DNA of 64,000 nt from Chaetoderma sp. LZ-2023a (lineage: Eukaryota > Mollusca > Caudofoveata > Chaetodermatida > Chaetodermatidae): NCBI GenBank assembly GCA_034401795.1, contig CM067370.1, positions 67,887,188-67,951,187 on the forward strand, in the 5' to 3' direction. Below, in pieces: positions 4,480-60,127 of the stretch. Every line of letters begins with the position of its first letter. The first letter of the stretch is position 1. Position numbers and translations under genes: made by a program. Below the pieces are notes generated by a model, which had not been told where the DNA came from, ran no database searches, and saw only the letters and a program-made list of their open reading frames with translations.

Positions 4480-4636
4480 AGTCTGCGCATGCGCGGTGGT
4501 GGGGCTGGCATCCGCCAGACTACGCTCTGACTCCCTGCCCAGTAGGGGCACCTAACTGTTTTAAATCTGAGTGTTTATTGAGTGAAAGCCAATATTTAGC
4601 AATATCAAAAGTATTAGGGAGGTAAGTATACTCTTG
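4480..4636 (-). promoter_or_regulatory. DIRS-A 5' terminus and promoter region
   Basis: On the minus strand this block starts TTTCACTTCAAGAG, then ATACTTACCTCCCTAATAC, an AT-rich stretch, GTGCCCCTACTGGGCAGGG, and a TGCGCATGCGC palindrome near 4487-4498. It precedes exon 1 of copy A. Homologous blocks lie upstream of exon 1 in copies B and F, and alone at 33620-33790. Its join to the truncated gag of copy B at 4636/4637 marks the insertion boundary. TGCGCATGCGC matches the NRF1 consensus; promoter function is inference. Confidence 0.65.
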
Positions 4637-5794
4637 AAGTGAAAAGAGCCGTGCTGGCCAACGGCTTCGCCTGTAACCACGCCCGCGGGTTACCGGCGAC
4701 CGTCTCGTCCACGGTGAGCTCTGGTCTTACAGCGAGGAGCCACGCACACGCCTCTGAGCAGTCTTCATCCGTGGCTACCTGCGAACTGCCGACGAGCAAC
4801 GGGCCCTCGTCATCCTCAATGGCATTCGCAGGTATGGCCGAGGAGGAGGCTATAGACGAACCTGGCTGCCCAGGGAACGTATACGGGCCCGCGAGGGCCG
4901 GCATAGCATTCTCCATAGGCAAACCAAGCTCCAAGGCCGCGCTTGTGCGATGGGGGTTACACACACCAGCGCGGCCCGGAACGTCCGTGTGAGACTCCAC
5001 GTCCAACCGTGGAATCTTATACGGCCGGCCGTCTGCTCCAAAGCGGGCCACAGGCTGAACCATGAAACCTGCTCCCGAGGGAACAGTGCCATAGGTGCGA
5101 GCGTTCACGCTCCCCAACAGAGGAGTGTAGGCGCTCACATCCATGTCTTCATGATCCACCTGTGGACCGAGCAGGTAGTCCTCATCATCTTCCTGGTCAG
5201 GAAAGTTAGGCTCTGGATTAGTAAGGAAAACTAACCCAGACTGACCAGGAGACTGCTCAAAGGCAGATGACGAGTTTACTCCGCGAGTGATCGTGGTCAG
5301 GCCCGTTGGTCGGGTCCCGCCTGATGCTTCTCGCGCCGCTGGCACCCCAGGCGATGCGAACATTAAGCCTGGGTCCAAGACGGCCGCCCCTGGATCACTA
5401 AACGCATTGTCCGAGCTAATAGGCCATGATCCAGGGACGGGGGCTACCTGCACCGAGGTCGATGCGCAGGAAGTTGAAACACCTGTGCCAGGCAACATGC
5501 CGCGAAGCATGTCAGGCATCAGGTCTTTCAAAGTCCTGCGCATCTCACTCACCAACTCACTCTTGAAGGGCTCGAGACCACTCTTCTCCGAGGCCTTCTT
5601 CTTACCGTCCTTCTTTGGTTTCTTCCCCTCCTCTGCCATCATCCTCGCCTGTAAAGAGAAGAATTCAGAGGTTAGACCCCCCCCCCCCACTTTTCACAAA
5701 TAACACATTTGTTGGACAGCCTACAAGCTGAACACAGATGGCAAGGGTGGGGGAAGAATCTAGCCTTCATAGACTTGAGGCAGGACGGACACTT
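4637..5794 (-). pseudogene. DIRS-B gag-like main exon, truncated and frameshifted
   Basis: This is a homologue of the DIRS-A gag exon. After an acceptor (CTTTTCAG) at 5795 it encodes the same eight-ligand zinc finger (CPSCLKSMKARFFPHPC and following CxxC pairs). The frame then shifts at a 12-bp C tract on the plus strand (5677-5688). The second frame continues through the lysine-rich segment and the conserved middle to about residue 350, where the copy stops abruptly at the 5' end of copy A. The missing C-terminal part presumably lies beyond copy A, outside the window. The shift at a homopolymer could be genuine slippage or an assembly error. Confidence 0.8.
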
Positions 5795-6726
5795 CTGAAA
5801 AGACGGATACAAAGACAATGAGTATGACAGTCTCAAAGCCTTGATAATGGATCTTTTAAGAAGAAACCAAAACAACCACGAGAGAAGACATCCACTATTA
5901 CGACCACCCTGACGGGACAGGCGACTTCTCTAGTTAATAACTCCAAATACAACCAGAACCCCATTCTTTTTAGATTAAGAGAGAGAGAAAAAGAACATGA
6001 CTATCTAGATATCTCTCTACACTTCTTAATAAACAGGGGATGAACACATCACCGACTTCTCCAAACTAAGATTATGACATCAAGGAAAGAGAAACTCTGG
6101 TTGATTATGACATCAAACCTCACTATGCAAAAGCTCCTACCAGGAGAGGGGACGTCAGATTTATGTAAGAAATATCTAGATCTCCAGACATTCTCAGCTC
6201 TCGACTAATATAATATTAAATTATATATACTCGAGAACCCATGCACACGCAAGAGAGAAAATAGTGCAATAGCAAACGGCAGCAGAAAATGTAATTATTT
6301 TCAAATAATCATGCGCCATAATTAATAACTCCCTTAGCCTGGGCACAGGCAACCATCCTCTTGTGCAGGAAACACGTCCATCCATCCGCCGAGACTCCTC
6401 TTCCAGAAGAACTGATGAGGGGGGATGGGACAAAAGGAAGGAGATATTTTATTTATTAATATATTATATCTCCAACCCTTAGACATATCACGATGATAAG
6501 TCATCCTGGGACGTGAACACCTTCCAGAGAAGACCAGGCAACCTTGTATAGACACAAGACCGACCTGTAAGCATAAAACACAAGAGTTTATTAGCCCTAG
6601 GCGCTGGGAAAAAATTTACAAGGATTCCCAGCGCCTGAAAACGCGGTACCGCCGAAAACGGCCGCTACGAAAACCGGTAACACACGAAAGTTACAAGTCT
6701 CAAATAAAAGCCAGGAACAATGTCAC
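5795..6726 (-). other. Predicted intron of DIRS-B gag
   Basis: This 932-bp interval has a GTGACA donor (minus) at 6726 and a pyrimidine-rich TTTTCAG acceptor at 5795. It contains two GATTATGACATCA blocks that look like decayed versions of the CRE-like block in copies A and G. No coding sequence was recognised. Confidence 0.55.
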
Positions 6727-6774
6727 CTTGGATGATGACGAGGAGGGCTCCTCTGACATTTTCGCATCAGCCAT
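6727..6774 (-). CDS. DIRS-B gag first coding exon
   Basis: This 48-bp exon encodes MADAKMSEEPSSSSSK from ATG 6774 and ends AAG|GTGACA in phase 0. It matches the position and phase of the first exons of copies A and F. The downstream main exon is broken, so it belongs to a dead copy. Confidence 0.55.
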
Positions 6775-6859
6775 GATAGATTTGGATGTATTGTTCTCTT
6801 ATGAATTCAGAAAAGCGCCTGTAAGGAATTTCCACCAGTTGCTTCCAGCCAATATATTA

Positions 6860-7040
6860 GAAAACGGAAGTACCGGTGTGCGCATGCGCAGAGGGTGGTG
6901 TTTGTCATGTGCATGACTGTGTACTTCCACCTGCCCATTAGGGGCACCTAACTTTTTATAATTCTGAATATTATTGAATTTAGAGCCGATATACTAGTAT
7001 ATCAAGAGTGTTAGGGAGGTAAGTATGTTCTCATGATGTG
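6860..7040 (-). promoter_or_regulatory. DIRS-B 5' terminus and promoter region
   Basis: Minus-strand homologue of the DIRS-A 5' block: TTTCACATCATGAG, ATACTTACCTCCCTAACAC-like core, GTGCCCCTAATGGGCAGG and a perfect TGCGCATGCGC palindrome at about 6881-6892. The plus strand reads GGGAGGTAAGTATG at the end of the element. Confidence 0.6.
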
Positions 7041-8005
7041 AAATCAGTCATTCCTATGTTGAATTTTCAAAAGTAATTAATTTTATGCCATAATTCAATA
7101 CATTTAAAATTTGGAATGGATAGAGTTAAAGATAGACCACCCTTCTGTCAAATAAATGCATGTTTTTATTTATTTTCAAAACTTTGGGACTTGCTGAATA
7201 TTAGTTTGACTGTTTGCATCAGTCTATCTGAAGGGTGTTAGTGTGCTATGCCAAATTGTTTTCATAATATTACTGTAGTAAAGGTATTCAGGCAAGAGTA
7301 TTTCTGAAAACCCTGGGTTGCAGAAAGTATAGGGTTAAGCAGATCATTGTGTGTTATTTCTAATCTTAAGCCAGCGCCCTCACAGGCCAATTATCACACC
7401 TATACCATTGAATTGTAAAGAGGCTCAGCATGTGATTGTGGTTATCAGAGATTATCAGACCTGGCTCTATTACTAGCGTGGCAAAGAGAATAATTAACTC
7501 AGGTATCTGAACTAAAGGTGAGACATCCTGTTGATAACCCCTATGCGGCCAAGACAATTACAGTGAATAGTAACCGTACCTACATTGTACATTATGACTT
7601 TTAAACACGACTTAGCACAAATTTTTGAAAATTTTTCACTGAAATGACTGGCTTAGTAAAAGCGGCAGTCATTTCACGAGTAAATTTGTTTTCCAGCCAA
7701 ATTAGTTTCAAAATATTCTGCAGTTTTCTCACATAGTGTCCTTGAAAATGATAGCTGAGGAATTCATTGGTGAAAGGGTTAAGGCATGTATTAGCTATAT
7801 TTGACTCCTAGCACTCCAATGTCAACAAAAAACATTTTTCAAATAAAATTAAAAGATACTGTTTTTTTATTTTCAACAAATTTGTCATTGCCCAACAAAA
7901 TTGTTGAAAAATGAAAACCAGTTTCCTTGGTATAGTCACAATAAAATATAGAATTTTTAATTATTGACATTAGAGGGCAAGGGGTTAAGCATTAATTTTA
8001 TTTAC
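7041..8005. other. Intronic or intergenic stretch, no gene recognised
   Basis: AT-rich sequence without convincing coding potential. It holds a decayed core of the fold-back MITE at about 7622-7690 (ATGACTGGCT ... CAGTCATTTC arms), and near 7708 a short copy of the dispersed repeat that reads TTAGTTTCAAAATATTC. Confidence 0.5.
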
Positions 8006-8212
8006 CTTCAAAATCTTGATGTCTTTGCTGATATGTGTGTCTGCACTGTCTGTATCAGCCTGTTCAACAGGACTTTCAGTAGACTTCTCATGCTTCTCAT
8101 AGTGTATTTTCATCCTTGCTACCTTGTTGACAACTGTGTACTCACATTCTCTACACTTAGCCATTTGTTTGCCATTAATCTTAACTTCCAAAAAGTGCTT
8201 CCAAATTGGATC
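8006..8212 (-). CDS. Possible BED-type zinc-finger exon (hAT-derived?)
   Basis: This minus-strand open segment lies between an acceptor (CCTAAG at 8213) and a donor (AAG|GTAAATAA at 8005). It encodes DPIWKHFLEVKINGKQMAKC and then a CxxC pair, spacing residues and H-x4-H (HYEKHEK). The W..F, KCxxC and H...H pattern is that of BED zinc fingers, found in hAT transposases and in host genes derived from them. A Ser/Thr/Asp-rich tail follows. No transposase core was seen nearby. It may be an exon of a domesticated ZBED-like gene or a remnant of an element. Confidence 0.45.
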
Positions 8213-9430
8213 CTTAGGAACATATTAACTATTTCAAATACCATCAACACATAAATATTCAGGACAACAGAAGAATTCAAAGATTAATGTAGCACAAGGA
8301 TATCTTTTTACTAATTGTCTAATTGATATCTAGCATTAACTGAGGATAGATGAAAACTTGAAGAATCTAATTTATATTCTATCAGCTTAATGCCTTAATC
8401 CCAAATTTGGATAAGATCTTATGTAAACATAGCTAATGTGTGTACTGAGTAGTGCATTCTAAAATAGCCTTAGAGAGCAAGGGTCATCAGTTAATTGTTG
8501 AAACAACATCTTAGCAGACTATATTTTCTCTATGAGTTTAAGATTCTTCCATAGGCCATGAACATTTTGCAAGAAATAGATTTAGACACAGAGACAGTTC
8601 TCAATAATATTAACATCTAGCTGTACATAGGTAGTCTAATATGTTTACATTATTGATTAAATAGGGTTTCTGTGGGTTTAACACAACTGGTCGAAATATA
8701 CAGAGTTAAAACATTTAAGACAAACAAAAGTTGAAAAAAATTAACCCATGGATTATAGAAAGAAGCAAATAAGACTCCTAATTTATTGAAATCATATGTG
8801 TCCTTTTAGATTATTATTATTATTATTATATAGCAATAAAGTATCCAAAAACACATGTAGATAACCATCCATCAATATGTACATGTACCTGTATGTGTCT
8901 AAATGCTCTATAGTTGTTTTAAGAAAATTACATTTCAGAAAAATATTTTTTATACCAATATTTTAGGTTTTGGACAGTTTTGGACAATTTAAGGTGTCCA
9001 AAACCTATTTTGGACGGACGGTTTAAACCATGGTTTAAACCACGGTTTAAACCACTAGTGTCCAAAACTTGCCAACCCTGATTTTAATTATCATTAATGA
9101 TTACACATTTATGGTAGTCTTCTAAGACAAACTTTATTTAATTTTGGTGAGCTTTCACACATAAATGCGATTTTGTTTCACCCTCGAAACCTTCCAACAA
9201 CAATGTTTCGTTTTAAGTAGTCCAAGCGCATCTGACTAGTCTGCCAAACTATTATGATGTCTGCTGACCATGTTAAACGAATCATCTTTCGCTATACATG
9301 TTCAGATGCCTACCCTCCTACATGTCCTAGGGCTCTTGTAGCAAAGTTTTGTTCAAATAAGTTAAGTGGTTCAGCTTTTAAAGAACTTACTGAAACATTC
9401 AGAAAACTGTAAGCCAATAGTTCCATTGGT
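8213..9430. other. Non-coding stretch with small palindromic cluster
   Basis: Nothing coding was recognised. There is an (ATT)n run near 8814-8831. At 8966-9081 there is a compact element-like cluster with TTTTGGACA and TGTCCAAAAC repeats in both orientations, around a 12-bp tandem of the palindrome GGTTTAAACC. Confidence 0.5.
9020..9053. repeat. Three tandem GGTTTAAACC palindromes
   Basis: The 10-bp perfect palindrome GGTTTAAACC begins at 9020, 9032 and 9044, a 12-bp period. Inverted TGTCCAAAAC motifs flank it. Confidence 0.85.
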
Positions 9431-9434
9431 GATT

Positions 9435-9800
9435 TCTCAAATATTCTTCTCTTGATCAGCAAATGGACATTTCTCAAGCACATTGTAGAAGCTTTTTTTT
9501 ATCTGTACTGACAATTAACCCTTGAAATTAGAGTCTCAATTTGAAGATGACTATACAACAACTGATCTGATTTACATTAGTTTCAAAATATTCAACAGAA
9601 TGTACATTACAGGATTTTTTCTCTGGTCTGTGAGGGTTATAGGGTTTAACAAATAAGCAATTAACAATATTTAACAATTTACTGGCCAAACCAGCCAAAA
9701 CCTGCATGTGCAGTGGTCTTGAGGAATGTCCTTTTGCAGGCCAAGAGATTATTTTTGACAATGGACCACTGAAATGCATGGCTCAATAACACAGGCAGTA
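9435..9800. mobile_element. Fold-back MITE fragments (TTAA/CCCTT family)
   Basis: Two half-copies of the dispersed fold-back MITE. One reads TTCTCTTGATCAGCAAATGG near 9450. The other contains GTCCTTTTGCAGGCCAAGAG near 9730. A TTAACCCTTGAAAT end lies at about 9516. Between them is a copy of the TTAGTTTCAAAATATTCAAC repeat. Confidence 0.6.
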
Positions 9801-11224: not shown

Positions 11225-11232
11225 CCGGGATG

Positions 11233-12903: not shown

Positions 12904-13042
12904 TTTTGCCTCTTGTAATGTCACTCCAGTAAATCTCTTTGTCATAAGAGTCTCAAAATTTGTTGTTCTCTGTATCGCAAATAGCAACAGTTTGACATCA
13001 ATCTCTGGCACACGCTTATTCATGATACGCGACAACTCACGC
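12904..13042 (-). CDS. VPS53: VPS53 exon (eighth seen)
   Basis: This 139-bp exon has acceptor TTTTTTCAG at 13043 and donor GTAAGT at 12903. It completes the split Arg codon of the previous exon and encodes [20 protein letters not shown], then [19 protein letters not shown], closely matching the metazoan Vps53 region with [14 protein letters not shown]. It ends in phase 0. The following exons, which would encode the rest of the protein, were not found between here and base 1. That interval is filled by DIRS copies A and B and other repeats, so they probably lie further left. Confidence 0.93.
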
Positions 13043-13880: not shown

Positions 13881-14172
13881 TTTGTTTCTACGAGAATTGT
13901 GTTAATACTTACCAGATATACTATTATGATAATGTCTATTATCTAGTCTAGCTCAAAATAAACAATTAAAACTCCACAATCTCCATGGTCCTGCCCATAC
14001 TATGTCCAGGAATTACCATAGCCTCCAGGTAGCGAGTCAATTCCAACAACAGTCAGATTCATCTTATATTTGTCTTGACAAACAGCGAAAGCAGCTCAGC
14101 CTCACCTCAGCGGGGTGGCTGAGGGAGGCCATAGTACATCTGGTAAGTATTAACAATTCTCGTAGAAACAAA
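13881..14172. mobile_element. Short DIRS-like terminal module (type C)
   Basis: A 292-bp unit. Its ends are about 43-bp near-perfect inverted repeats: TTTGTTTCTACGAGAATTGT at the left, with AATACTTACCAGATATACTA next to it; ATAGTACATCTGGTAAGTAT and the inverted partner at the right. The inner 70 bp after the left end match the 5' end at 31005-30935. It has no coding capacity, so it is a non-autonomous derivative or an end-to-end deletion product of the C-type DIRS element. Confidence 0.7.
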
Positions 14173-14855
14173 AGCGGATGATTTTTTTTATTCTACTTCG
14201 AATAATACTTACCAGATGTACTATTATGATAAACTCCGGATTTCGACAGCCAAGAAACTCCGATGGGAGGAGGCGAGGCTCAAAACAGCTCACATCTACC
14301 ATCCGACAGAGAAGGTTGTGAAGAGACTGGAACCCGAATATATGTTTGGGCCCCGCCATCTGACTCATAGAGTGCTAAACTTTCATGGTCTGACCGCGCT
14401 CCCCCCCTCATTTGTCCACACAACTTCCAGACGGCTGCCAAAAGAGGAGGCAACACCCACCAGACCCGTTTCAGGCCCAAGTCTTGACTATGGCTCGGCT
14501 CGGGCTTGGCTCTCCTAGCAGGAGAGTGCAAAGCAGCTACCACAACTTCTAATTTTGAAAAAAACTATCAGTATATCGATTAGATTTTCAAATTGGAATG
14601 AGTCTATTGTCTGTTGCAATGAATAAGATACTCTTGAACCAGACTTTTTACTTAATCAGTCTGGGAATTTGACTAAGTAAATTAATATTGGTCACTTAAA
14701 CTAAGAAAACACTCGCCATTCTGAGTGCTTGGTCTTTTTGATCATCGCAAGAGCTTCGCCCAATCCATGGTCGTTCACAGATCATGTGCATCACCAGTGT
14801 TAGTGCATGTGGAAGAACCCTACGATGTATGCGTAAACAGTGGTCGGACGTGGCT

Positions 14856-22474: not shown

Positions 22475-24200
22475 TCAGCAAATCCTTAACTGCTGATTCC
22501 TTGACAACATCCATGCGGTCAATTGGAACATTGATGGGTTGTTGTGCAAGACCTTGCCCTGGAAGATTTTATTGTCCATCAGTGGCAGAGGAAGAGGATT
22601 GCAGATCAGAAGGTTATGTTCGTCGTATACCATGATTGGCTTGGCCAATTTGGGGCGATCAGAAGCACTTGGTATTCCTGCTGCCTGATTTTCTGGAGAA
22701 CTTTTGGAATCAAGATTGCTGGCGGGAATGCGTATGCATACATTCCCTCCCAGCTGATAGCTAACGCATCTATTGTGATATCTTTCGGATCTGGAAACGG
22801 AGACACATAAGTTGTCATCTTCGCTATCTTGTTCGTTACGAATAAATCTCTGTTGGGCATGCCCCCGTGGTTGAATAGACGGTCCGCCACACATTGATTT
22901 AGCTGCCATTCTGTGGGAAGAATGCTCATTCTTCGGCCCAATGAGTCTGCTAATAGATTTAGCCTTTCCGGAATATGAACTGCTTTCATGGAAATCCCAT
23001 GATCTAGGCACTAGCAAAGCAGTTTCCATGTCATTATACAGAGACTGGGCGACTTCATTCCGCCCTGGCAGTTTATGTAAGTCACTACTGTTGTATTGTC
23101 TGATCGAACCAGAACACTCTTGCCCTTGACCTTCTCTAGGAAGTGTTCCATGGCTAAGACTACTGCTCGCATTTCCAGCAGATTGATATGTTCGTTTGAC
23201 TGATCTAGATTCCAAAGCCTTGATACTTTGTTTTCTTCCAGGCAAGCTCCCCATCCCTCCATTGATGCATCTGTGTACATCGTTAACTGAGGGGTGGGAG
23301 GTGACGTCACTGCCGCCAGAAGATTCTCTCTCTTCACCCACCATTGAAGGTGGTGAATAAGAGGTTCCAACACTGACACTTTTGAGTCCAGGAAACCCGT
23401 ACTCTGGGTCCACTGTGTCATGAGAAATAACTGGATCGGCCGCCGGTGTAAGGCTGCCTGTGGAATGACTGGTTCCAAAGCAACCATCAACCCAAACATT
23501 CTCAAGTAGACCCGTGCCTGGACATGACGACTGTTGCACACTGACTGTATGACAGGTGAGTATTTCTACTTTCTCTTGAGATGGGTAAACATACCCTAAC
23601 TCTAGATCGAAGAACATGCCCAGGTAAACAAACTTCTGTGATGGAGTCTGCTCTGATTTTTGAAAGCTGATTATCCAGCCTAGATCTGTAAGAGTTTTCA
23701 AAACTACCCAGATTTGCTGACAGACTTTCTTGATTGTGTGCTTTTAAAAGCCAGTCGTCTATGTATGTGTGGATTGCTCTGTGTCTCCTGCGGAGGTATG
23801 ATGCCATAGCTTGGACCACTCGAGTGAAGACCCGAGGAGCCATCGATATACCAAATGGGAGAACCCTGAATTCCCATTGGCGGCGCTGGAATGCAAATCT
23901 CAGGAACCGACGAAAGCTCTTCGCAATGGGAATGTGAAAATAGGCATCTTTTAGATCTACTGATGCTGTCTACATTCCCGTCCTCAATCCTGCTAACATC
24001 ATCCTTACAGTTTCCATTTTGAAACCTGGTGTGAGGATAAACCTGTTGAGAGGTTTGAGGCTGAGAATTGGTCTCCACCGTCCAGAGTTTTTTGTCACTA
24101 GGAACATGGTTGAATAATAACCCGGACATTTTTGTGCGGGTTGAATTGCGTGTAAAATTAGTATGAGGGATTGAATTTCTTCCTCTATACACAACTGTTG
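22475..24200 (-). pseudogene. DIRS-F RT / RNase H, with stop and frameshifts
   Basis: This starts at CIEEEIQSLI. The RT contains the TAG stop at the Trp of the GMW/TASVDLKDAYFH region, the same site and codon as in copy M. It then has an intact YIDD box (HTYIDDWLLKA). A frameshift follows near 23705, then KFVYLGMFFDLELGYVYPS. RNase H shows YTDASMEGWGACLEE, SDNTTVVTYINCQGG and HIPERLNLLADSLGRR. The alternative frame is also open for about 300 codons (22475-23550). Confidence 0.85.
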
Positions 24201-27239: not shown

Positions 27240-27405
27240 CAGCCCCGCTCATGCGCGAGTTTGGGCCGCACATCCGCTAGACTGTCAGTTGAGTAACCTG
27301 CCCAGTGGGGGTGTGTTTCTTTTTAATTCTGAGTATTATTGAAGCTAGGTCGATATTTAGGAAATATTATAGAGTATCAGGGTGGTAAGTATACGCTTGA
27401 TGTGA
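27240..27405 (-). promoter_or_regulatory. DIRS-F 5' terminus and promoter region
   Basis: Minus-strand block TTTCACATCAAGCG, TATACTTACCACCCTGATAC, AT-rich spacer, CCCCCACTGGGCAGG and a decayed NRF1-like palindrome (CTCGCGCATGAGCGG). The plus strand reads GGTGGTAAGTATACG at the terminus. Confidence 0.6.
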
Positions 27406-30834: not shown

Positions 30835-31008
30835 TCTTTTTTAATATGGGTTTATTGAGGCAAGGTCGATATTTAGGAAATATCAGTGTTAGGGAAGTAA
30901 GTATATCTCTTGAAGTGAAATGCGGAATTTTAATTGTTTATTTTGAGCTAGACTAGATAATAGACATTGTCATAATAGTACATCTGGTAAGTAATATTCG
31001 AAGTAGAA
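30835..31008 (-). mobile_element. Nested DIRS 5' ends (G inside N)
   Basis: From 31008 down, the minus strand shows the C-type 5' end (TACTTACCAGATGTACTATT and about 70 bp identical in layout to 13908-13980). At about 30932 it switches to an A/F-type 5' end (TTTCACTTCAAGAGATATAC, TTACTTCCCTAACAC) up to GGTGCCC at 30835, where the Penelope-like sequence begins. This records two successive insertions. Confidence 0.7.
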
Positions 31009-33619: not shown

Positions 33620-33800
33620 GTTGATACTTACCTCCCTAATACTTTTGATATTGCTAAATATCGGCTTTCACTCAATAAACACTCAGATTAAAACAGTTAG
33701 GTGCCCCTACTGGGCAGGGAGTCAGAGCGTAGTCTGGCGGATGCCAGCCCCACCACCGCGCATGCGCAGACTAGCACTTCCTCTGACTAATTTATTGGCT
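33620..33800 (+). mobile_element. Solitary DIRS 5' terminus, plus orientation
   Basis: TACTTACCTCCCTAATACTT is followed by the same 5' block as copy A, including GTGCCCCTACTGGGCAGGG and GCGCATGCGC at about 33759. It is the only DIRS end on the plus strand. It breaks off near 33790, just before the perfect palindrome. Confidence 0.75.
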
Positions 33801-33833
33801 GATACACATGCAACTATTAAGAGCCTGAAGACT

Positions 33834-34060
33834 AGCAACATTTCTCTGTAAAATTAGTTTTAAAATACGCAATAGACTGTTTTCTTATAATGAATTTGTC
33901 AGAATTGGTCTATGGAAGTGAAAGGATTAACATGGACCATTTGCATTTGGACTTTGGTCCATGTTAATCCTTTCACTTCCATAGACCAATTCTGACAAAT
34001 TCATTATAAGAAAACAGTCTATTGCGTATTTTAAAACTAATTTTACAGAGAAATGTTGCT
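33834..34060. repeat. Perfect 106-bp palindrome with 15-bp spacer
   Basis: Left arm 33834-33939 and right arm 33955-34060 are exact reverse complements over 106 bp, with spacer 33940-33954. No mismatches found. It lies in the VPS53 intron 29 bp from the donor end of the exon at 34090 and directly after a truncated DIRS end. Confidence 0.95.
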
Positions 34061-34089
34061 GTTTACAGGTATGCTCTTTGGTTTCTTAC

Positions 34090-39485: not shown

Positions 39486-41982
39486 TCAGCTGAAACCAGA
39501 TGCAGTGCCATCTATTTTTCCAAACTCGTGTAAACTGGCTTCTCCACCTGGACCTTCACGTGCTGCAGAGGCCCGGCGTATACACGAGCAGCAAAGACTT
39601 GTAGAAGTGTGCGATTCATTTTGGGCAGCTGATGAAACAGTCGATGTGAAAGACACTGTGCAGAGGTTGAAGGCGAATGAAAACGTGCCACAAGGATATT
39701 CGTATATTGAAAAGGATAACAAACTTTTAATATGTGTTATCAATCTTACTGATCAAATTCCAGATATTCCAATATCGATCAACATCGAAGACGATCTATG
39801 TGTTAGTGTTGTTATAAATGGCAAAGTGATTCCCAAAACCTCTTATGCACACATTATAAAGAAGATAACAAATCTTTGTCAAGTTCGCAATATAATGGCA
39901 GAATCTAAGGCCTGGAATGGTAGGCCTACATCTAAACTGGCTATGTGCTCACTTGATATGGCGATATCATGTCTGGAAACATATGTTGCTGATACAGATA
40001 GTGATAACATAAAACATGTTCAGTTCTTGCTGGAACAGTTAAAACTGTGGCAAGATGTGCGAGGCGCTATTCACCCGCATGTACAATTTTTTCATACATC
40101 TTATATTCAACCAGCCCAAGTGCATATAAGGAAATACAAAGGCAAGCAGTGTTATGTCTTCCCATAGAACGGACATTACGGGATATAATGCGCACAGTAG
40201 ATTTTGACAATGGAACGACTGACCATAGCTATTTGAAACTTAGATTGACAAAGTTGAATGAGTTTGACTCAAATATTGTGTTGATGATTGATGAGATTTA
40301 TACAACCAAGCGCCTTGAATATTCTTCAACTGAAGGTCGGATCTTGGGTGTGACATCAGAAAACAAGACTGCAGGCACCATTCTATGCTTGATGATTAGC
40401 TCTATTGCTGGGAAATACTGGGATGTGGTCGCGCTCTACCCCATGAATCATCTGAATATTGGTAAAACGGATACCTGTTTGTAAGAGGTTTTACAATTCT
40501 TAGACAGTGTTGGATTTAATGTTCTTGTAGTGTGCGTGGACAACCATTCTGTCAATAGGTCACTGTTTACCAACCATTTATGCAATGGCAGATTAAGACC
40601 AGACGTAAAGAATGCAGTGAATGGGAAGCTGCTTTTTCTACTATTCAATCCTGTACATAATATAAAGAATGTATACAACAACTTTCAGTCAAAGGAGGTG
40701 TTCCAGTGCCCTCCATATCACAATCATCAGGCCAGTACAGACACTATTCCAGTTGCTTCAGAAGAAATTACTGCCGGATTCCATGATATTTCCAATTTGT
40801 ATGCTCTGGAAGCGGCAAAACCAGTACGGCTGGCCCACAAACTCAGCATCCGATCACTTGAACCCAAAAACATCGAGAAACCCTCAGTGAAATTGGCGAT
40901 GGCGATCTTTGATGAGAGCACACTAGGAGCTCTAGAGTTCTACTCAGATAATGACAATAAGGAATGGCATGATACTGCAACATTTATTTCCCCGATTCTC
41001 AAGCTCTGGAAGATTATAAATATGAAGACAAAGACAGACGGGAAACACAAACGTGATATATGTAAAGACGTAGTTCGTTCATCTGCTGACTGGAAACTCA
41101 CATTTCTGAGGGAGTTCACTGATTTTCTGCAGCGCTGGTCTTCAAGTGGATCTCCTGGCTTGACGAAGAAAACCTTTACTTCACTTACTCAACTGTGTTT
41201 GACGCTTCCAGCTATCGCGAGCTATAGTATTGATACTCTAGGATTTAAATATGTTCTTCTTGGAAATCTTCAATCTGATGACATAGAGGCCAGATTTGGG
41301 TGGTACCAACAGCTGTCTGGTGCCAATTATTATGTTTCTGTCTGGGCTTTCGATCAGTGGTCAGTAATTCAAAAGGTGATTGCACTTCTTGCCACACGAG
41401 TAGACCAAGGACAGGTGGATCTAGTAATAAAAAAACTGTCACAACTTGAACCATCAAATCCCAATCTGGCAGATATGAATGTTGTGTACTATGTAGCAGG
41501 AGCATTAACGTGGTCAGAATCGAGACAACGATGCTGTACCTCATGCAGTGACATTTTGGTCGAAAAAGACCGGTCCATTGATCTTCACGAAGAGAGTTTT
41601 GAGGTAGTGGATGACAATGCGAGACTATTCATGAAACAAATTAATAGGGGCGGTCTTGTTTCACCTAGCAATACTGCGTATTCCATATGCCTTAAGTGCT
41701 TCACGATGTTCACTATTATAAAAGACAACACAGAGTTGATGGACTTGTTCATGTCAGTCAAATATCAAGTCATCTTTCCAGACCTTAATATCTGACATCA
41801 TAGACAGTGATGATGTAGCAACTTGCCTAGTGTCATGTGAAAATGGACATCAGTATAGGAATGGTATCGTCGCTCATTTCTTTAACTGCATGATGAAGAA
41901 CTTTGTTAAGGATTTGTTCAAGCCAGAACCAGTTGCCAAGAAGACGAAGATAGACAAGCTATCTGGTAAAACAGCCTACTGA
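39486..41982 (+). pseudogene. P-element-type (THAP9-like) transposase, broken
   Basis: An acceptor (TTTTATTTCAG) precedes QLKPDAVPSIFPNS, the end of the THAP region. The coiled and insertion part runs to about 40070. A frameshift follows, then AYKEIQRQAVLCLPIERTLR and the conserved block LMIDEIYTTKRLEYSSTEGR, with AGTILCLMISSIAGKYWDVV: the P-element RNase H-like core. A TAA at 40482-40484 interrupts one frame that is otherwise open from 40047 to 41795 (VCVDNHSVNRSLF, FNPVHNIKNVYNNF). The C-terminus (NGIVAHFFNCMMKNFVKDLF) is in another frame and ends at 41982. Antisense to VPS53 within its intron. No terminal inverted repeats were found. Confidence 0.87.
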
Positions 41983-46179: not shown

Positions 46180-46183
46180 TTAA

Positions 46184-50205: not shown

Positions 50206-50259
50206 AGATGGCACCATTACATAATACCCCGCCAAATTTTTTGGCGGGATATGAAAATT

Positions 50260-51094: not shown

Positions 51095-51950
51095 CTGAAA
51101 CAACAATAATCACATAGTACCATTCATACCAGCGGTGAGAGACAATAACCTTCGCATAAAACACAAAGTTACACAATATTTGTCAAGAAATTTAACTTGA
51201 AAAAGACGTTAAAAAGATCTGTGTGAGTTAGTACATTGTAGTGAGTGACATACAGACAGACCTGTGTCAAAAGACCACTGAACATTTCTAAAACGAGCAG
51301 GATATGTCCCCTTGAGCTTAAATTACTGAGCTTTCCAATAGGCTATGTACATTAGCAAGGCTTCTTAAAGTAATTATTATCGATAATACTGAGATAAATA
51401 TAAGCGAAGGTTCAAAAAGCTTTGCAGGTGACCTTTAGTGGTCAGGAAAATCAAATTTGCTTATTGAACGTCCATTTGCAGGTCAAGAGAAGGCTATTTT
51501 TCAACTTGAAAAATTTGTTACTGATATCGAGCCATCCCAAATTTTGACAATCGTCAAGGGCCTGAATTGCTAACCTGTATCATACGCATTTCAACTAGAA
51601 AGGCCATAGACTATGTGGTTTCAGAGAAAAAGATGTTTCTAAAAATTGGCCAAAATCACAGATGGCTGCCTACCAAGATCTAGGTCCCTTTCAACAAAAT
51701 TTGATCTCTATGTCATAAGGATGCTTCCTGCCAAATATAATTGAAATCGGCCCAGTGGTTCTTGAGAAGACATTTAAAATTTGCTATTGCTTTAAAAGTA
51801 TTTAGAAGTTTTTGGAAGGAAAAAGAGCCAAAATGGCTGCCAAACCGACATTGGTCAGATGGTATAAATAAACCATAGGACGGGGAAGAATTTCCAATAT
51901 CTGAAACAGAAAATTTACGTTTTTTATTATCGATAATACTGGAAATTGAA
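51095..51950. other. Upstream VPS53 intron, no gene recognised
   Basis: Non-coding. A left-half MITE is at about 51470-51535 (GTCCATTTGCAGGTCAAGAG) and a minisatellite-like stretch (AATATAATTGAAATCGGCCC) at about 51735. Confidence 0.5.
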
Positions 51951-52518
51951 GGAAATTTCAATTTCCCTTTCTCCGAGATCTAACAATACTTACCATTATA
52001 TTACTCTTGATAATACAAGCTAGCTAGCTAGCTGCTCTAGGAATTTAGATTTAGAAAGCTTTACCAGCTCCTGGAACCGGTTACCCGGTTACCAACAAAA
52101 GGGTACCCATCTGCCAGTGAGGCTCATATTGTTTGCTACCATACACGAGAACACCTATGCCTTGCCTCTGTGGGGCTGGGAGGCAGGGTCCGTAATAGAA
52201 TGAAGGAAATGTCAATTTCCCTTTCTCCGAGATCTTACAATACTCACCATTCTGTTACTTCTGATATACAGCTGGCCTTGACAGCGGCTCTAGGATTATA
52301 GACTTAGAAAGCTTTACCGACTCCTGGGAACCGGGTACTCGGCTCCCAACTGCCGAGTACCCGTTTACCATAGAGCTCATATTGTTTGCATAGCCACCAA
52401 ACAAGAGAAAACTATGGCTTGTCTCCGTGGGGCTGGGAGGCTGGGTCCGTAACAGAATGGTGAGTATTGTTAGATCTCAGAGAAAGGGAAATTGACATTT
52501 CCTGCATTCTCCTTCGAT
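51951..52518. repeat. DIRS inverted-terminal modules, two units
   Basis: Unit X (about 51951-52204) and unit Y (52205-52502) each start GGAAATTTCAATTTCCC or GGAAATGTCAATTTCCC, then AGATCT and CAATACTTACC or CAATACTCACC. They continue with the 5'-end sequence of DIRS E2 or E. Unit Y ends in the inverse (GGTGAGTATTG, AGATCT, GGGAAATTGACATTTCC). So Y is a nearly 300-bp palindromic-ended module made only of DIRS end sequence. It also holds a GGGTACTCGG/CCGAGTACCC hairpin (52333-52362). Unit X has lost its right terminus. Confidence 0.75.
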
Positions 52519-53054
52519 CAATACTCACCATTCTGTTACTTCTGATATACACCAGATTTGATCAGTAACCTGGTGGGAAGGGGCAAGCCATAAATGCTAA
52601 TTTTGCCCCTTGGAGAAAGATTTTAGACTTCAAACTTGACTAACGGAGACCTAAAAGGACCGTCAAGTTCACGGAACCGAATCACATTCGCATCACCGCC
52701 CCCCCCCCCCACCCTTTTTCCTCCTAAGAAAAGGGAGAGAACTCACGAACATGTATCTCGCCTGAAACACAAATATGCCAAGAGGGTTAACTGCTCCCTG
52801 CATATTCCATGTATTAGCCTGGGAATGAGCATGAATATATAAGATGAATGAACATGATACACATCCATAATACAAAAAACTCTCACTATTGAATTACCTT
52901 ATGATAATTGGACTCCAGACGTACCGCCTCCAACCATTCACTGGTTCGGCCATCAGTGACACAATCTGGTTGTCATCCTCTCGCTTGACCATGCCTGCTT
53001 TAGGTTCTTTTCTTACCGAAGTGAAAAAAGGGTGAAGAGCAGTCTGGTCACTAA

Positions 53055-54160
53055 CTATCGTTTCAAAACAGCTAAAGCGAGTGGATTGGCTGAGTCTGAC
53101 ACATCCCTCATATAGTAATCCGTAAATGAGGACTCACAGTGCCATTGTGCAACGGCCATGATGTCCTTTAACGGAACACCATTGTAAAGGGCGGTCGAGG
53201 CGGCTATTCCTCTGACATCGTGTGCCCTTACGCCTTGCACCTGGTGCCCAGTCGCCATCTCGTGAGTAGTCTGAATGCATTCGACCACCCAACGAGAGAT
53301 AGTATCCATGGATGCGGCGCCATAAGGCTTTTTATGGCAGATCCACAGATGTCTATCGTTCGACCGTAACGAGTCAGGCCGTTTCTTGTACTTAGTCAAA
53401 GCACGGACCGGGCACCAGACACTGGCATCACGATCAAACCTAGTTAACTTCGGTATAATGATCGGTTTGCCGGGATATCTCAAAGATTGGTTCTTTGACA
53501 TAAACTCTGCTCTTGGCAGAAGACGCAGACCTTCTCCAGAAACAATAAATCGGTTCCTCTCTGCCGAAAGCGCATGGATCTCACTGCGCCTTCTAGCTGA
53601 GGAAGCTGCCAATAGAAAGACCGCCTTTAGAGTCAAATGCTTTAGACCAGCTGAACGCAACGGTTCGAAAGGGTGCTTGGCCAGTACATTAAGCACTAAA
53701 GATAGACTCCAGGCTGGAATGACTACCGGTTGTCTCGGCCGGAGATTGCTCATTCTCTTCAACATCACATTTAACTGGGCCACCTCTGGACTTTCCCTGT
53801 TGGCTAGACAAGGGATAACTGATGCCAAAGCTGACTCGTATCCAGCAACTGTGACGGGAGCTAGTCCTGAAAAGAACAGCTCACAGAGAAAGTCTGCTAT
53901 TTGCTGAATAGTGGATTGAAAGGTATCAATACCCTTTTCTTCACACCAGTCTGCAAATCTGTTAACCTTGTTGTTATATGACTTGAAGGTTGACCTCCTT
54001 CTCGCAGCCGCGATGAAATCAGCAGCCTGTCGAGAAAAGCCTTCCGACGTGGAATGTTGTTTGATAACATCCACGCAGTCAATTTGAACATTTCGGGACG
54101 CTCGTGTAGGAAGTGTCCCTTGGCCTGGGAGATTATGTTCGGAATCTCGGGCAACTGCAC
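53055..54160 (-). CDS. DIRS-E tyrosine recombinase
   Basis: Intact recombinase reading to the stop at 53055. The N-terminal core-binding part has EGFSRQAADFIAAARRRSTF, YNNKVNRFADWCEEKGIDTF and ADFLCELFFSGLAPVTVAGY. The catalytic part has Arg in SSARRRSEIHALS, then His-x-x-Arg in RAHDVRGIAAST, and Tyr in SSFTDYYMRDVSDS: the R-H-R-Y tetrad complete. It would integrate circular cDNA, so such elements make no target duplication. The frame stays open upstream to an ATG at 54983, overlapping RNase H by about 820 bp, and the true start is unknown. Of all recombinase copies here only this one is intact. Confidence 0.9.
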
Positions 54161-54166
54161 AGGATT

Positions 54167-56061
54167 TTACACCAACAGATCTAGAAGATCCGTGAACCAC
54201 GCCCTGCTCGGCCAATACGGCGCTATTAGCAGGACCAGACACGGTTCCTCCCTGACCTTCACCAATACCTTCGGTAGAAGAATGGTGGGTGGGTACGCGT
54301 AAGCGTGCATCCCTCTCCAGCTTATCGCCAGAGCGTCTGTATCGACGGCATTTGGATCTGGAATTGGCGAGACATATGTCATGATTTGAGCATTTTCCTT
54401 TGTGGCGAACAAGTCCACGTTGGGTTTGCCCCAATGCTCGAAGATCCGTCGCAGAACCGGAGGGTTGAGGGACCATTCTGTTGGCAGAATTCTCTGTCTG
54501 CGAGACAAAGCATCTGCCAGAATGTTCAATCGGCCAGGAATATGAGCTGCTTTCAAAACAACCGAGTAATTCCTGCACCATTGAATCAAGTGCCACACTC
54601 TGATACACAGAGTGGGCGACCTGGTCCCGCCTTGGCGATTTATATATGATACTACTGTCGAATTGTCTGACTGTATCAATATCACCTTGCCCCTGATCAT
54701 CGGAAAGAACTCTTCCAACGCCAGTTCCACTGCCATCATTTCCAACAGATTGATATGCAGCTGACTCTCCGGGAGAGTCCATGTGCCCGAGACCTGGTGT
54801 TCTCCCAGGCAGGCACCCCACCCCTCCAGCGATGCATCCGTGTACACGGACAGCTGGGGGTGGGGTAGGTGCAGCGAAACCCCTACTAGGAGATTCTGAC
54901 GCTCCTTCCACCATACAAGATGCGACATTATCGGCTCCAAAACTGGTACCAGTTTTGACAGGGGTTCTGTTCTCTGTTTCCACAGAGACATCAGATACAA
55001 CTGGATAGGCCTTCGCATTAGAGCAGCGTACAGGATAACCTGCTCCATGGAGACCATCATGCCCAGCATCTGAAGGAACCGCCTCGCCTGAATGTGGTTT
55101 CCCACTCGAAAACTCCTGAGGATGGCTAACAGAGACACCACTCTGGGCTCTGACGGGTACACCCTGCCCTCCTCGAGATCAAATCGCATTCCCAAATAAA
55201 CGAAATGTTGAGTGGGCGTCAACTCGGATTTCTCCTCGTTGACTATCCAGCCTAGATCTGAAAGTAACCTCAGAGTCAGAGCAGTATCCACGTTCAACCT
55301 GGCTGCCGAGTCTGCCTTGATCAGCCAGTCGTCTATGTAGGTGTGTAGCGCCACGTTCTCTTTTCTGAGAAACGCTGTCACCGCAAGGACCACTCTTGTG
55401 AAAACCCTCGGAGCTGTCGACAGGCCAAATGGGAGAACAATAAACTCCCATACTTGATTCTGAAACGCAAATCTCAGAAACCTGTGACAACTCCTGTTCA
55501 TCGGAATGTGGAAATATGCATCTTTCAGATCGATCGATACACACCACATTCCTTTCCTCAATCCCGCCATTACCGACCTCGGCGTTTCCATCTGGAACCG
55601 AGGCGTATGGATAAACCAATTTAATGGCCTGGCCTGAGATTGAGTATGGGTCTCCATCCCCCTGTGCTCTTGGGGACAAGGAACATGTTTGAATAGAAGC
55701 CTGGAGTGTTCCGGTTTGCTGGTTTTATTGCTCCCTTCAGAAGCAAACCCGACACTTCCTTTTGAACAGCTTCTAACTTGTCTGGCTCCCTTGGTACGGG
55801 TGTCCAGACAGGTGCCAAAGACAGATTTTGTGGTGGAAAGTCCCACCACTCCGGCATGTAACCCTGGGATAACCATCCCAGGACCAGACTGTCTGACATC
55901 ACACCTCGCCAGGCCTCGACGAAACGCATGAGCCTTCCACCCACCATAGACGCCTCGACGTCTAACGGGGTTGTCCGGCTCGCAGTCCGCTCCCCCCTCT
56001 TTCTTAACGAGAGAGAGAGAGAGAACCATTTCGTTCTAGGCACGACGGGTATAACTGGCAC
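54167..56061 (-). pseudogene. DIRS-E RT / RNase H with a 5-bp duplication
   Basis: N-terminal RT part (56061-55621): SLAPVWTPVPREPDKLEAVQ, GWRPILNLRP. A 5-bp tandem duplication (GGCCA twice, about 55627-55636) then shifts the frame. The rest is open in the next frame to 54167: IDLKDAYFHIPM, LPFGLSTAPRVFTRVV, YIDD box (HTYIDDWLIKA), VYTDASLEGWGACLGEH, HINLLEMMAVELALEEFF, SDNSTVVSYINRQGG, HIPGRLNILADALSRRQ and a final LAISWRGMHAYAYPPTILLP block. All catalytic residues are intact, so the duplication is the only damage seen. The gag and the first RT frame are the same frame, separated by one TGA at 56119-56121. Confidence 0.88.
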
Positions 56062-56118
56062 CGCTGTTCCAGTCGCACAGGCGCGGTCCAGACGGATATG
56101 AAGGGAGCTCTCGTACCC

Positions 56119-58215
56119 TCAGGTACGATCCGGCCCCTTCTGTCCGCCCTTTGAGGACTTACCCGTACCCTTCCCCTTGCCGCCTCTAGGGCGGTCAGGA
56201 GCAACCTTGGGGAGGGTAGGCGCCTCTACAACCTTCCTGGCTTTCTTCGCCGGTGGCGGCTGAGAAAAGCCAGCTGAAGCAGAAGTTGCAACAGGCTTAG
56301 CTTTCGCCTTGCCCTTATGCTTCATCTGCTTCTTTGAAGGTTGTCCCGCTAGCGGTTTCCCTACAGCCCCTAGTGCGTGCGCTTGCCGCACTAGCTCTAG
56401 CTGCAGGTTGACCGCTAACCGATTCTGCGCAATACTGGCTGTATCCTCTAAGATGGCCCGCGCCTGGCCACCGAAGATGCTAGGCCCTGTCAGGGGCGTC
56501 CCAAGAAGACGCTCCCTGACTGCCGTAGCCGGACGCATATGGTCAATGACCATTTGCCTCCTGGATTTAGTCACTCGCGCTTGCACCCTTGCCAATGCGT
56601 CCATAGACAGCACCAGGCCGTCATTTACGCATGAAAGCGCCACAGGTGGCACAGGGTGGCCTGCCCCCGCTTCAGCCCACACCGACTGAAGATGAGTTGT
56701 TGACAGCGCTCATAGCTGCCCTCACACCCTCATCGCATAGGGACAGGACTTCCTCTTGGTGTACCTGAGCCTTGTCCACAAGTGCCGGACCGGGGCCACC
56801 CGCCCCGGCACTCTGAATGCCCAGTACCCATCGGTCATCCTCGGTGACCGACGGGACTACACCATATCTGTCGTATTCCCCCCGCGGAATACGACATCTT
56901 TCCCGCACCTCCCTGGAGGCCGCAGGGAGCTGACCCTTGGTCATAAGTTGTTTGCTATAAATAGCCTCCAACAATTCTATGAACCGTGGATCCAGTCCCA
57001 CAGACTGGATCCGGGTCACGGGCAAAATCCCCGCCCTAATCGATGCAACCGACGGACGGGGCGCATCTTCATCGGCCGTGGCCGAAACCACAGACGGGTC
57101 AACCCTGGCTAGCCACGCCAGAGTCTCTGACCAATCTATCTCCGATGAAGACACACCCGCAAACACGTCACCCGTTGACGTGTTCACGGGCCTGCCAGCC
57201 ACGGCCTCCCGGCAAGGAGCCACGGCTGACACGCCAGGCACTCCGGTACCACACGTTCCGCCGCCACCCCATGAAACACTCCGGTCCATGGGGTAGGTCC
57301 GCACGGAAAACCGTACGGACCCGTAGCAGTCGCGGAACCGTAGCCAGACACGGGCGCCAATGGCACCCCACGTCCGACTGCCGGACCCGGCGAGATAGGT
57401 GAGTACCACGCCCGGCCCGGCCGACCCGTTACCGTGTCGGCTGGTGCCAAACCAACCATCATGGAACCGGTGCCCGGTACCAGATTAGCCTCAGCCACAG
57501 GCGGAGCCACTGCCCTGGCTTGCGCCAAGCCAGACAAATAGAGGCCGGTTCCGTCCGGTTCCGTCCAGGACGGAATCGACCTCCATATTCTCCACCTGCG
57601 GCATCACAGGCCGCAGCAACCTCTCCTCCTCGTCTTCAGACTCAGAAGAGTCATCGCTAGACGAGGAAACCGTGGAGCACCTGACGGACCGGCCACCGCT
57701 ACTGGACCACCCGGAGGTGGCCGCAGAGAAACAGAACCTGTCTGGCCGGAGCCAGATGGGACTGCCAAGGGTCCGTACAAGACGGCCCCCTCGGAAACCA
57801 GTCCAGAACCCTGTCCGAGGACAGGGTCCGTACCAGGCATGGGGAGAAACTGCCCCCCAACATTTGGTAGCAGGGACGACACCAGCGTGGGCAGAACGCT
57901 ATGCAGAAAACCCTGCATAGCCGGACCAAACCACGCCAGCGGTGCCATCTCCGCCACCTCCAGCTGGGGACGTGGAGCACCCCCACCGGCCGAACCGGGC
58001 GCTCCACGATTTACTCTCGGACCGCCTGACCCCGTGTCAGACCCAGCCAAGTCCTTCTGGGCAAGGAACTTAACCATCATATCCACGGACCACACTGCGC
58101 ACACATTACACCTATGGTCTAGGTTACAGGGCGAACACCTAAAACAGACATGGTCCTTGAATACGACTCGTACAAATTTATGGCACTCGTCACATGATGG
58201 CGGGGTTGGCTTGGC
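56119..58215 (-). pseudogene. DIRS-E gag-like protein, frameshifted
   Basis: From an acceptor (TTATTTATAG, 58216) it encodes AKPTPPSCDECHKFVRVVFK and the complete eight-ligand zinc finger (CFRCSPCNLDHRCNVC). An acidic segment (SSDDSSESEDEEE, about 57640) and YGSATATGPYGFPCGP lie in shifted frames. REVRERCRIPRGEYDRYGVV is in a third, and the C-terminal TPLTGPSIFGGQARAILEDT block plus a Lys/Gly-rich tail (KHKGKAKAKP) are in 56682-56119. At least three frameshifts. The tail is Lys-rich rather than Arg/Gly-rich as in A. Confidence 0.82.
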
Positions 58216-59262
58216 CTATAAATAAGCACAAACCTACAATTACAAGCGGAACGAGACCCTGATGGAAGGCAGACAATTAATTTTCAAATAATTTGACTCA
58301 TAAATTAACCGTATCCCTCCCGCACCCCACCACGTTACAACAAAGATCGCATTGATTATAACGACAAGAACGAAGCGGGCATAAAACACACCCATATTAG
58401 ATCCTCCAGGATGTGTAACGGCTCCAGGAATCATATCGCATAGCATTCGGGGTATATTTACCAATCAATATAAATTATACTCCCTAACGAAAGCCAAACG
58501 ATATGTGAAGAAAACAACAAAATGTATAACAAACTGCTGTATCACACGGTAAGACCGCAGACCACGCATCTACTCAAGAATTTTGAAACCACCGATCATT
58601 GCAAACCGATCGTGATCGCACGTAAACTTGAACATTCTAAAGTTTCCGGTACCATTTTTAGTACGCAGCACCCAGAACGAGATGCGCGAATTAATGAAAA
58701 TTTTTCTTCACATAAACATCCGAGCGACCGGGTGTGACGTCACCCGCTCGGATCCTACGGAGAACGACGTCAGCCGATATTCGTGTTAGAAATACCGTAG
58801 CAAACACCTATTTTCATATCTGCCGATCGCCTGTTGGGGTTTAAAGAAGGCGATCGTCTGGCATATATCGTTGTTAGCACACGTCCCAGATTCTCTGGGG
58901 TCAGAAATCGGGACATGCGACACAGCGAAATTTAGAGACCTAAGTCTTTTGATACAACCTGGTTTTCATCGGCGGTATTCTCCATAGTATCCAGTTAAAT
59001 CCTTCAAGAACGCACAAACTATCACTTTACAGACAAAGACTTAGATTTCTTTAACAAAAGACACTAAAATCCTCTCCCTGCAGAAAGCATGTATTGCTCT
59101 TGTTGCTATGCAAACAAGAATGAGTTCTATGGTAAACGGGTACTCGGCAGTTGGGAGCCGAGTACCCGGTTCCCAGGAGTCGGTAAAGCTTTCTAAGTCT
59201 ATAATCCTAGAGCCGCTGTCAAGGCCAGCTGTATATCAGAAGTAACAGAATGGTGAGTATTG
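58216..59262 (-). promoter_or_regulatory. DIRS-E 5' region with CRE-centred hairpin
   Basis: No coding exon 1 was recognised here. A TGACGTCA site at 58735-58742 sits inside nested inverted repeats (ATCCGAGC and GCTCGGAT outside, GGGTG and CACCC inside; 58718-58753). GGGTACTCGG ... CCGAGTACCC forms a 10-bp-stem hairpin at 59139-59168. The outermost 32 bp are the inverted terminal repeat. Confidence 0.6.
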
Positions 59263-59318
59263 ATCGAAGGAAAATGGTAAATATTGTTAGATCTCGGAGA
59301 CCTTCATTCTCCTTCGAT

Positions 59319-60127
59319 CAATACTTACCATTATATTACTCTTGATAACACCAGATTTAGACGGCAACCTGGTGGGAAGGGGCAAGCCATACATAGCTTC
59401 TTTTGCCCCTGGAGAAAGAACTTAGACTTAAACTTGTCACACGGAGACCTAAAAGGGCCGACAAGTTTAGGGACCGAATCACATTCACATCACCGCTCTA
59501 ATAAGAAAAGGGAGAGAACTCATGAACATGCATCTCGCCTAAAACACGAATATGCTTAGAGGGTTAACTGTTCTTTGCATATATTAGCCTGGGAATGAAC
59601 ATGAATATATAAGATGAATGATCATGATATATAAACATAATACAAAAAAACTGTCAAACTTGATTTACCTTATGAATATTGGATTTCAGACGTGGAGCCA
59701 TCAACCAAGCACTTTTTCGACCATATGTGGTCCTCTCGCTTGACCATGTCTGTTCCATAACTTTTGTTTTTTCAAGTATCAAAAGGGAGAATAACGGTGT
59801 GGCCATTTAACTATCATTTCAAAACAGCTAAAGCGAGTGGATTGGCGCAGTCTGACACATCCCTCATACATTGTATAGTAATCCGTGAATGAGGACTCAC
59901 AGTGCCATTGTGCAACAGCCATGATGTCCTCTAACGGAACACCATTGTAAAGGGCGGTCAAGGCGGCTATTCCAATAAACATTGTGAGCCCTTGCGCATT
60001 GCACCTGGTGCCCAATCGCAATCTCATGGGTAGTCTGAATGCATTCGACTACCCAACGAAAATAGAATCCATGGATGCGGCGCCATATGGCTTCTTATGG
60101 CAGATCCACAGATGTCTGTCATTTGAC
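59319..60127 (-). pseudogene. DIRS-E2, recombinase 3' end only
   Basis: Second, related DIRS copy whose 3' end (CAATACTTACCATTATATTA at 59319) lies 57 bp from the 5' end of copy E. The 3' region parallels that of E. Recombinase C-terminus: ALYNGVPLEDIMAVAQWHCE, SSFTDYY then frameshifted CVRLRQS. The HxxR segment has been replaced by frameshifted sequence (LTMFIGIAAL). The copy is cut at about 60127 by the LINE. Confidence 0.82.

Follow-up and report, generated by a model that had tools for sequence, protein, structure and literature searches.

Why do the ends of several divergent DIRS1-like retrotransposons keep one and the same short sequence, and why does that sequence read like a 5′ splice site? 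The question is raised by a stretch of 64,000 nucleotides from the mollusc Chaetoderma sp. LZ-2023a (assembly GCA_034401795.1, contig CM067370.1, positions 67,887,188 to 67,951,187 of the forward strand; hereafter the window), in which the 9-mer GGTRAGTAT, here called the core, recurs in DIRS1-like elements of four families (A, C, E, and F). Our results suggest that GGTRAGTAT is probably the clade-specific form of the boundary sequence of DIRS1-like elements, that is, a putative recognition and end-joining site that is ordinary in kind. The finding is genuine and of a kind already known. New is that the same 9-mer is kept in the four families, together with a partner sequence, TATCA, thirteen bases inward of it.

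The window contains 14 exact copies of GGTRAGTAT on both strands, against a mean of 0.76 and a maximum of 3 in 100 dinucleotide shuffles of the window; the preliminary description, made from the sequence alone, had estimated that such a 9-mer should occur by chance less than once or twice. Thirteen of the 14 are in terminal repeats or internal complementary regions (ICRs) of DIRS1-like elements. The preliminary description had listed about 15 places and put nearly all of them at DIRS termini. Thirteen of the places do hold an exact core, but the sites near 30895 and 30985 are one-mismatch cores, both at DIRS ends, and an exact, non-terminal copy at 23555 had been overlooked. Moreover, five of the 13 DIRS-located cores (14142, 14205, 52459, 52521, and 59321) are ICR sites and not outer ends. 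The sole exception to a location in DIRS ends or ICRs is the overlooked copy (23555–23563, plus strand), which lies between two DIRS reverse transcriptase matches and on the opposite strand. Because each complete element has four cores (left repeat, two ICR arms, and right repeat) and the copies are related by descent, the cores of the window are not independent. Therefore, their enrichment reflects abundance and anatomy, not 14 separate events or independent gains.

This anatomy was read in E2, an E-type element on the minus strand (52199–59275) that is nested in another E-type element and was delimited by its ATT junctions and its coding matches. The terminal repeats of E2 are inverted (52238–52410 versus 59262–59094, 94.8% alike). 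Motif scanning and reading of the ends placed the core GGTGAGTAT in the left terminal repeat (59252–59260, plus strand) and in the right terminal repeat (52240–52248, minus strand), and a core at each end (52521, minus strand; 52459, plus strand) of a 71-bp ICR (52459–52529, minus strand). The ICR is located just before the right repeat; its arm 1 is complementary to the left end and its arm 2 to the right end. An open reading frame (ORF) for reverse transcriptase and RNase H (54167–56029, minus strand) matched RVT_1 (E = 7e-20) and RT_RNaseH (E = 2e-5). The tyrosine recombinase ORF (53055–54983, minus strand) is open, and the residues R, HDVR (HxxR), and WHCESSFTDYY (with the catalytic Y) were found by eye in its translation; its match to the N-terminal domain Phage_int_SAM_1 was weak (E = 1e-3, under the curated cut-off), and Pfam gave no Phage_integrase match in it. 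None of the ten window ORFs scanned matched a methyltransferase domain in Pfam. Inverted terminal repeats, an ICR with a 3-bp junction, NTT (here ATT) ends, reverse transcriptase/RNase H, and a tyrosine recombinase identify the element as DIRS1-like.

Comparison of the inner 60 bases of five sequences, one per type (A, F, C, E, and E2), showed that eight of the nine core positions are invariant and that the remaining one is A or G. Beyond the core, the columns that never vary hold TATCA (−18 to −14) and a single additional A. Among A, F, C, and E, no invariant stretch is longer than 9; none of 20,000 letter shuffles produced one of that length, although this control ignores shared ancestry. 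Just 6 of 42 inner terminal bases are alike between E and E2, and the core is retained. Thus, the proposal that one core is common to divergent DIRS end types is borne out: the 9-mer is kept in A, C, E, and F despite the turnover of the inner terminal sequence. Of the 13 cores of the window that lie in termini or ICRs, 10 have TATCA thirteen bases inward.

Pattern searches over the 2.44 Gb host assembly identified 25,226 places at which two cores face each other 40–70 bases apart, as in an ICR, compared with 7 for the reversed-pattern control. The 50 listed places that were sorted, all near the start of contig C1, comprised 28 of E, 16 of A, and 6 of C; 48 of the 50 were full length (71–73 bp). 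Spacings from core to AAT and from AAT to core were 12/38 in 27 of the 28 E and all 6 C ICRs, and 13/38 in 14 of the 16 A ICRs. The main spacing of the family was therefore kept in 47 of the 50, the exceptions being two ICRs with a deletion and one A ICR with 14/38. Family F surfaced, along with a few A and E strays, through a pattern that required G after the core, and its spacing, read by hand, is 15/40. With up to two mismatches, a probe from the E right extension had 21,933 matches in the genome, ICR copies being counted along with right ends, and an inner A-type probe had 20,482. Exact matches to core-free probes were used to fetch 20 E sites and 20 A ends, of which 17 and 19, respectively, had the exact core; this sampling favours young copies, and two of the E sites (L048 and L049) have the same flanks and are probably one event duplicated. 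In addition, four of four cores in 30 loci retrieved by the E reverse transcriptase were at ends or in an ICR. The E reverse transcriptase segments were 50–62% identical to A-like stretches and 51–70% identical to the stretch upstream of a C-type ICR, called C by its position, and recombinase segments were 28–67% identical. No DIRS relatives were confirmed in viral contigs.

Within the sample taken here, the core is confined to one clade. A recombinase domain search of the genome gave 122 matches, of which 16 loci from the upper ranks on large contigs were fetched, with four intervening ones skipped; this sample is biased towards lineages with a PF00589 match, which A, C, and E lack. The preliminary description had named termini lacking the core as an observation that would tell against it, and such termini exist: GGTRAGTAT was absent from all ten loci of three other DIRS lineages (G1, G2, and G3), each fetched as 1.7–1.8 kb that included an ICR and did not reach the outer left end. 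Their boundary sequences differ from the core, which is thus no universal DIRS end motif. The ICR arms contain GAATTTGATTANGGTATAAT in G1 (six loci, five of them with a right end), GGAATTTGNCTGGAT in G2 (one locus), and GGATGGAATTA, with variants, in G3 (three loci). The G1 locus L089 has kept its ICR and lacks the right end. G1 is a retrotransposon lineage: the reverse transcriptase segments of its locus L098 have 32–33% identity to those of E. L095 is a relative of G1 that has lost its ends, and L097 was assigned to no group. At four further loci (L082, L083, L086, and L088), the recombinase match is followed by long direct repeats, an arrangement like that of PAT or Ngaro elements. The direct repeats of L082 and L088 contain GGAGYTAATAAATTTATTTACGG-like sequence, and L088 has one ATACTTACC outside its direct repeats.

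The boundary between element and host is ATT, and the ICR junction is AAT. On the left, 12 (E and C), 13 (A), or 15 (F) bases separate the core from this junction, and on the right 38 (E, C, and A) or 40 (F). The last bases before the sequences diverge are CCTKCA at right ends of E, except that one of the ten fetched (L056) is degraded, and CGTTTA at those of A; at left ends, read outward, they are GGAGAA or GTGAAA, or single-base variants of these. Because the core is internal, 12–15 bases from ATT on the left or 38–40 on the right, it is neither the crossover nor the target. The earlier suggestion of a recombinase crossover core thus survives in part: the core could form part of a recognition site, but the crossover is at ATT, outside it. 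The suggested target preference for splice-donor-like sites does not hold, since the core is inside the element and copied in the ICR, and none of the 20 flanks (≤25 bases each) of ten A elements contained it. No target site duplication was seen by eye in these ten elements.

One ICR sequence of each family (that of E, 71 bp like the ICR of E2, was taken from the genome-wide pattern matches) folds as a single imperfect hairpin, in which a basal core stem is followed by an internal loop, a six-pair stem, a small loop, and an apical stem. The z-scores of the DNA folds were −6.4 (E), −6.5 (A), −5.9 (C), −8.5 (F), and −8.6 (lineage G1), with 0 of 200 shuffles as good in each case. The apical stem has six pairs in E, A, and F; in C it has three or four in the DNA fold and six in the RNA fold. 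It is confined to the right extension, and the AAT junction is at the top of the middle stem. In E, A, C, and F, the 6-bp apical arm is centred no more than 0.5 base away from the point halfway between the cores, a centring matched by 16, 30, 37, and 45 of 5000 shuffles, respectively. Between families, five of the six apical pairs of hand-chosen helices have changed on both sides. Whereas the core stem is a trivial consequence of the inverted repeats, the apical stem is not. Column-based pair counts (alignment A2) were dropped because the aligner had moved the 3′ core of F.

The four cores of E2, the near-constant distance to ATT, the 9-mer with TATCA in four families, and the ICR hairpin are consistent with a recognition site. 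The bipartite sequence TATCA-N13-GGTRAGTAT would be read by the element's own tyrosine recombinase, the hairpin or dyad would bring the left and right ends together into a circle, and the circle would then recombine at ATT, 12–15 bases beyond one core and 38–40 beyond the other. We tentatively propose, as a possibility about which we remain rather doubtful, that the right extension is a fold-back hairpin that would serve as a built-in splint, aligning both DNA ends for circle joining before recombination at ATT. In this hairpin, paired changes would have preserved the apical stem, and the core would be the basal stem that is read by sequence. The left end would pair, to about its last base, with the core and inner box of the right end, and the extension would fold into the apical stem and so place both DNA ends next to each other for circle joining. 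The hairpin, in which the stem letters change and the pairing is kept, is the part most worth testing.

Several points weigh against these two readings. The conservation of the core may partly be due to common descent of the four families. TATCA is out of place at 27384 and absent from both exact copies of ICR arm 2. For the hairpin, the outer stems are partly owed to the terminal repeats being inverted repeats. When 11 bases were trimmed from each end, the folds were weaker, and 7 (E), 8 (A), 1 (C), and 1 (F) of 300 shuffles were as good; the corresponding numbers were 1 for G1, 6 for G2, and 136 for G3, which thus fails. Moreover, the paired changes were counted on manually selected helices of the folds, and arms paired across families still form 2–5 of the six apical pairs and 4–6 of the six pairs of the middle stem. 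Finally, the ATT crossover and the dyad axis are about 11 bases apart, an offset not expected of a simple symmetric recombinase site.

If the core is read by the recombinase, its resemblance to a splice donor is coincidental in this clade, which is probably the case, although the resemblance itself is complete. Three fetched host U1 small nuclear RNA (snRNA) genes, of 36 matches, begin with ATACTTACCTG, and nucleotides 1–9 of the host U1 pair at 9 of 9 positions with the core GGTAAGTAT, so that the complementarity to the U1 5′ end first noted from the sequence is perfect in this host. The core might instead be retained for binding of the U1 small nuclear ribonucleoprotein, which would make it either a genuine 5′ splice site or a site at which U1 keeps the element RNA from being polyadenylated prematurely, the sense copies then being those in the right terminal repeat and in arm 1 of the ICR. 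The perfect pairing, the retention of the core in all four families, and the A or G at donor position +3, which is what a donor permits, all agree with this explanation. However, exon positions −2 and −3 vary between families, the motif is missing from the ten loci of the other DIRS lineages, and TATCA and the near-constant distance to ATT would need a separate reason. The preliminary description had also suggested a donor used to splice out of the element. Processed copies would be expected to recur, because spliced RNA copied back would leave them. Among 29 E2-type places with the donor G replaced, 26 are small variants that continue unspliced, two have a common deletion that lies between direct AGAATG repeats and is not GT-AG, and one is different; no GT-AG spliced product was found in this search, which concerns genomic retro-copies, is blind to a next exon starting with G, and drops places with A at the last position. 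As a partial test, this result gives that suggestion no support: it speaks against common use of the donor in the template RNA, not against its use in host transcripts or against U1 action without splicing. Overall, retention for U1 binding appears very unlikely. The U1 snRNA genes form an array at 37.80–38.02 Mb of contig C15 of the assembly, part of it at a spacing of 1,709 bases, with interspersed diverged copies (73–89 bits).

Two further explanations dispense with a donor. An explanation by pure structure or inheritance would reduce the core to the most stable stem at the base of an end-pairing hairpin or panhandle, with letters that come from common ancestry and are not read specifically. 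The good folds of the ICRs, for one sequence each of the four families and G1, fit such a role, as does the published model in the part of PMC3266345 considered here, in which restoration of the ends requires left and right repeats complementary to the ICR. Against it, the other stems of the hairpin change their letters between families and the core does not, and E and E2 have kept the core with so few inner terminal bases alike; we consider this explanation unlikely. Alternatively, the core or the adjoining ATT could be a preferred integration target, so that copies accumulate at cores. E2 is indeed inserted at the ATT adjoining an ICR core of the outer E-type element, and a preference of DIRS-1 for its own copies is described in passages of PMC5633606. 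However, an E right end joined to the ATT beside an E ICR core was found at 9 places genome-wide, one of them in the window, versus the 21,933 matches of the right-extension probe (ICR copies included), and the core is internal to the element, with coreless flanks in the ten A elements. Preferred integration at cores is the least credible of the explanations, with hardly any probability left to it, and the core-adjacent ATT as an integration hot spot was rejected because of its rarity.

Around E2, the window contains C-type ends with an ICR, A-type ends, a single F-type end, and the outer E-type element. The last of these, into which E2 is inserted, spans about 51947–60130 or more. Motif scanning and end reading placed cores in its right terminal repeat (51986–51994, minus strand) and in its ICR arm 1 (59321–59329, minus strand), and its ICR arm 2 has a decayed core, GGTAAATAT (59276–59284, plus strand), beside the ATT used by the E2 insertion. 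From motif scanning and flanking context, A-type left-end cores were assigned at 4621–4629 and 27384–27392 (both plus strand), the latter with TATCA off its usual spacing, and an A-type right-end core at 33624–33632 (minus strand). The F-type left-end core (7018–7026, plus strand) was assigned with additional comparison to the F-type genome matches. A C-type element has a core in its right terminal repeat (13905–13913, minus strand) and an ICR (14142–14213, minus strand) with a core at each end (14205, minus strand; 14142, plus strand). Flanking context identified an A-type left end with the one-mismatch core AGTAAGTAT (30896–30904, plus strand) and a C-type left end with the one-mismatch core GGTAAGTAA (30986–30994, plus strand). 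A near-perfect inverted repeat (33824–34069, 93.5% over 248 bases) lies just inside the A-type right end, and an ORF at 40530–41795 (plus strand) matches TNP-like_GBD, the GTP-binding insertion domain of transposase-like proteins (E = 1e-6). Elsewhere in the assembly, contig C18 and small contigs, including C2617, C2518, C2384, and C2618, have strong matches to bacterial-type integrases, several of them in neighbouring threes. Both COX1 matches of the assembly are on contig C18, which reaches at least 4.65 Mb; this contig looks bacterial and is perhaps from a symbiont assembled with the host.

For annotators, the approximately 50,000 cores genome-wide (two per ICR-pattern place) could pass for strong splice donors, but transposon sequence is the better explanation for them. 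For experiments, a short sequence common to four families and a hairpin whose letters change while its pairing is kept offer concrete sites to mutate in an assay of circle formation or integration. In the literature, no match combined DIRS, inverted terminal repeats, splice donor, and retrotransposon. Among titles, no DIRS literature paired GGTAAGTAT with a retrotransposon, and none of the matches listed had a title on a DIRS terminal hairpin. No terminal motif appears in the passages considered of PMC6387122, PMC2685390, and PMC4157794, and the main text of PMC3266345, figures and supplements apart, contains “splic” 0 times.

Similar to a metazoan 5′ splice site, the core is a perfect complement of nucleotides 1–9 of the host U1. 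Different from such a site, however, it belongs to an inverted repeat, occurs in the ICR as well as at either end of the element, and keeps a nearly fixed distance to the recombination junction, and it shows no sign of use in the retro-copies examined. The elements share a tyrosine recombinase with PAT-like and Ngaro-like elements, of which the direct repeats of L082, L083, L086, and L088 are reminiscent. However, the termini of A, C, E, and F are inverted and accompanied by an ICR, and split direct repeats were not found in them. DIRS-1 of Dictyostelium was reportedly the subject of work by Cappello et al. in 1984 and 1985. As described in passages of PMC5633606 and PMC4482531, and terminal letters aside, DIRS-1 resembles the elements of this study in its terminal repeats with a right extension, its ICR, its recombinase, and its insertion into its own copies. 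The model of DIRS circle joining is called “experimentally not fully proven” in a passage of PMC5633606, although circular DNA has been observed. The closest description considered here is that of DIRS1-like elements in parts of PMC3266345, where each terminal repeat and each ICR arm has, at the boundary between conserved and divergent sequence, a common sequence of at least 10 nucleotides, which is suggested to act in circle formation (Piednoel et al., 2011). Section 10 of that paper contains no boundary sequence common to several families, no TATCA partner, and no hairpin of the right extension. The general plan given there, with inverted terminal repeats, two ICR arms, ATT ends, an AAT circular junction, and a right extension, is that of the A, C, E, and F elements, which also have a boundary sequence, and whose right extension of about 23–26 bases (38–40 minus 12–15) falls within the 9–75 reported in PMC3266345.

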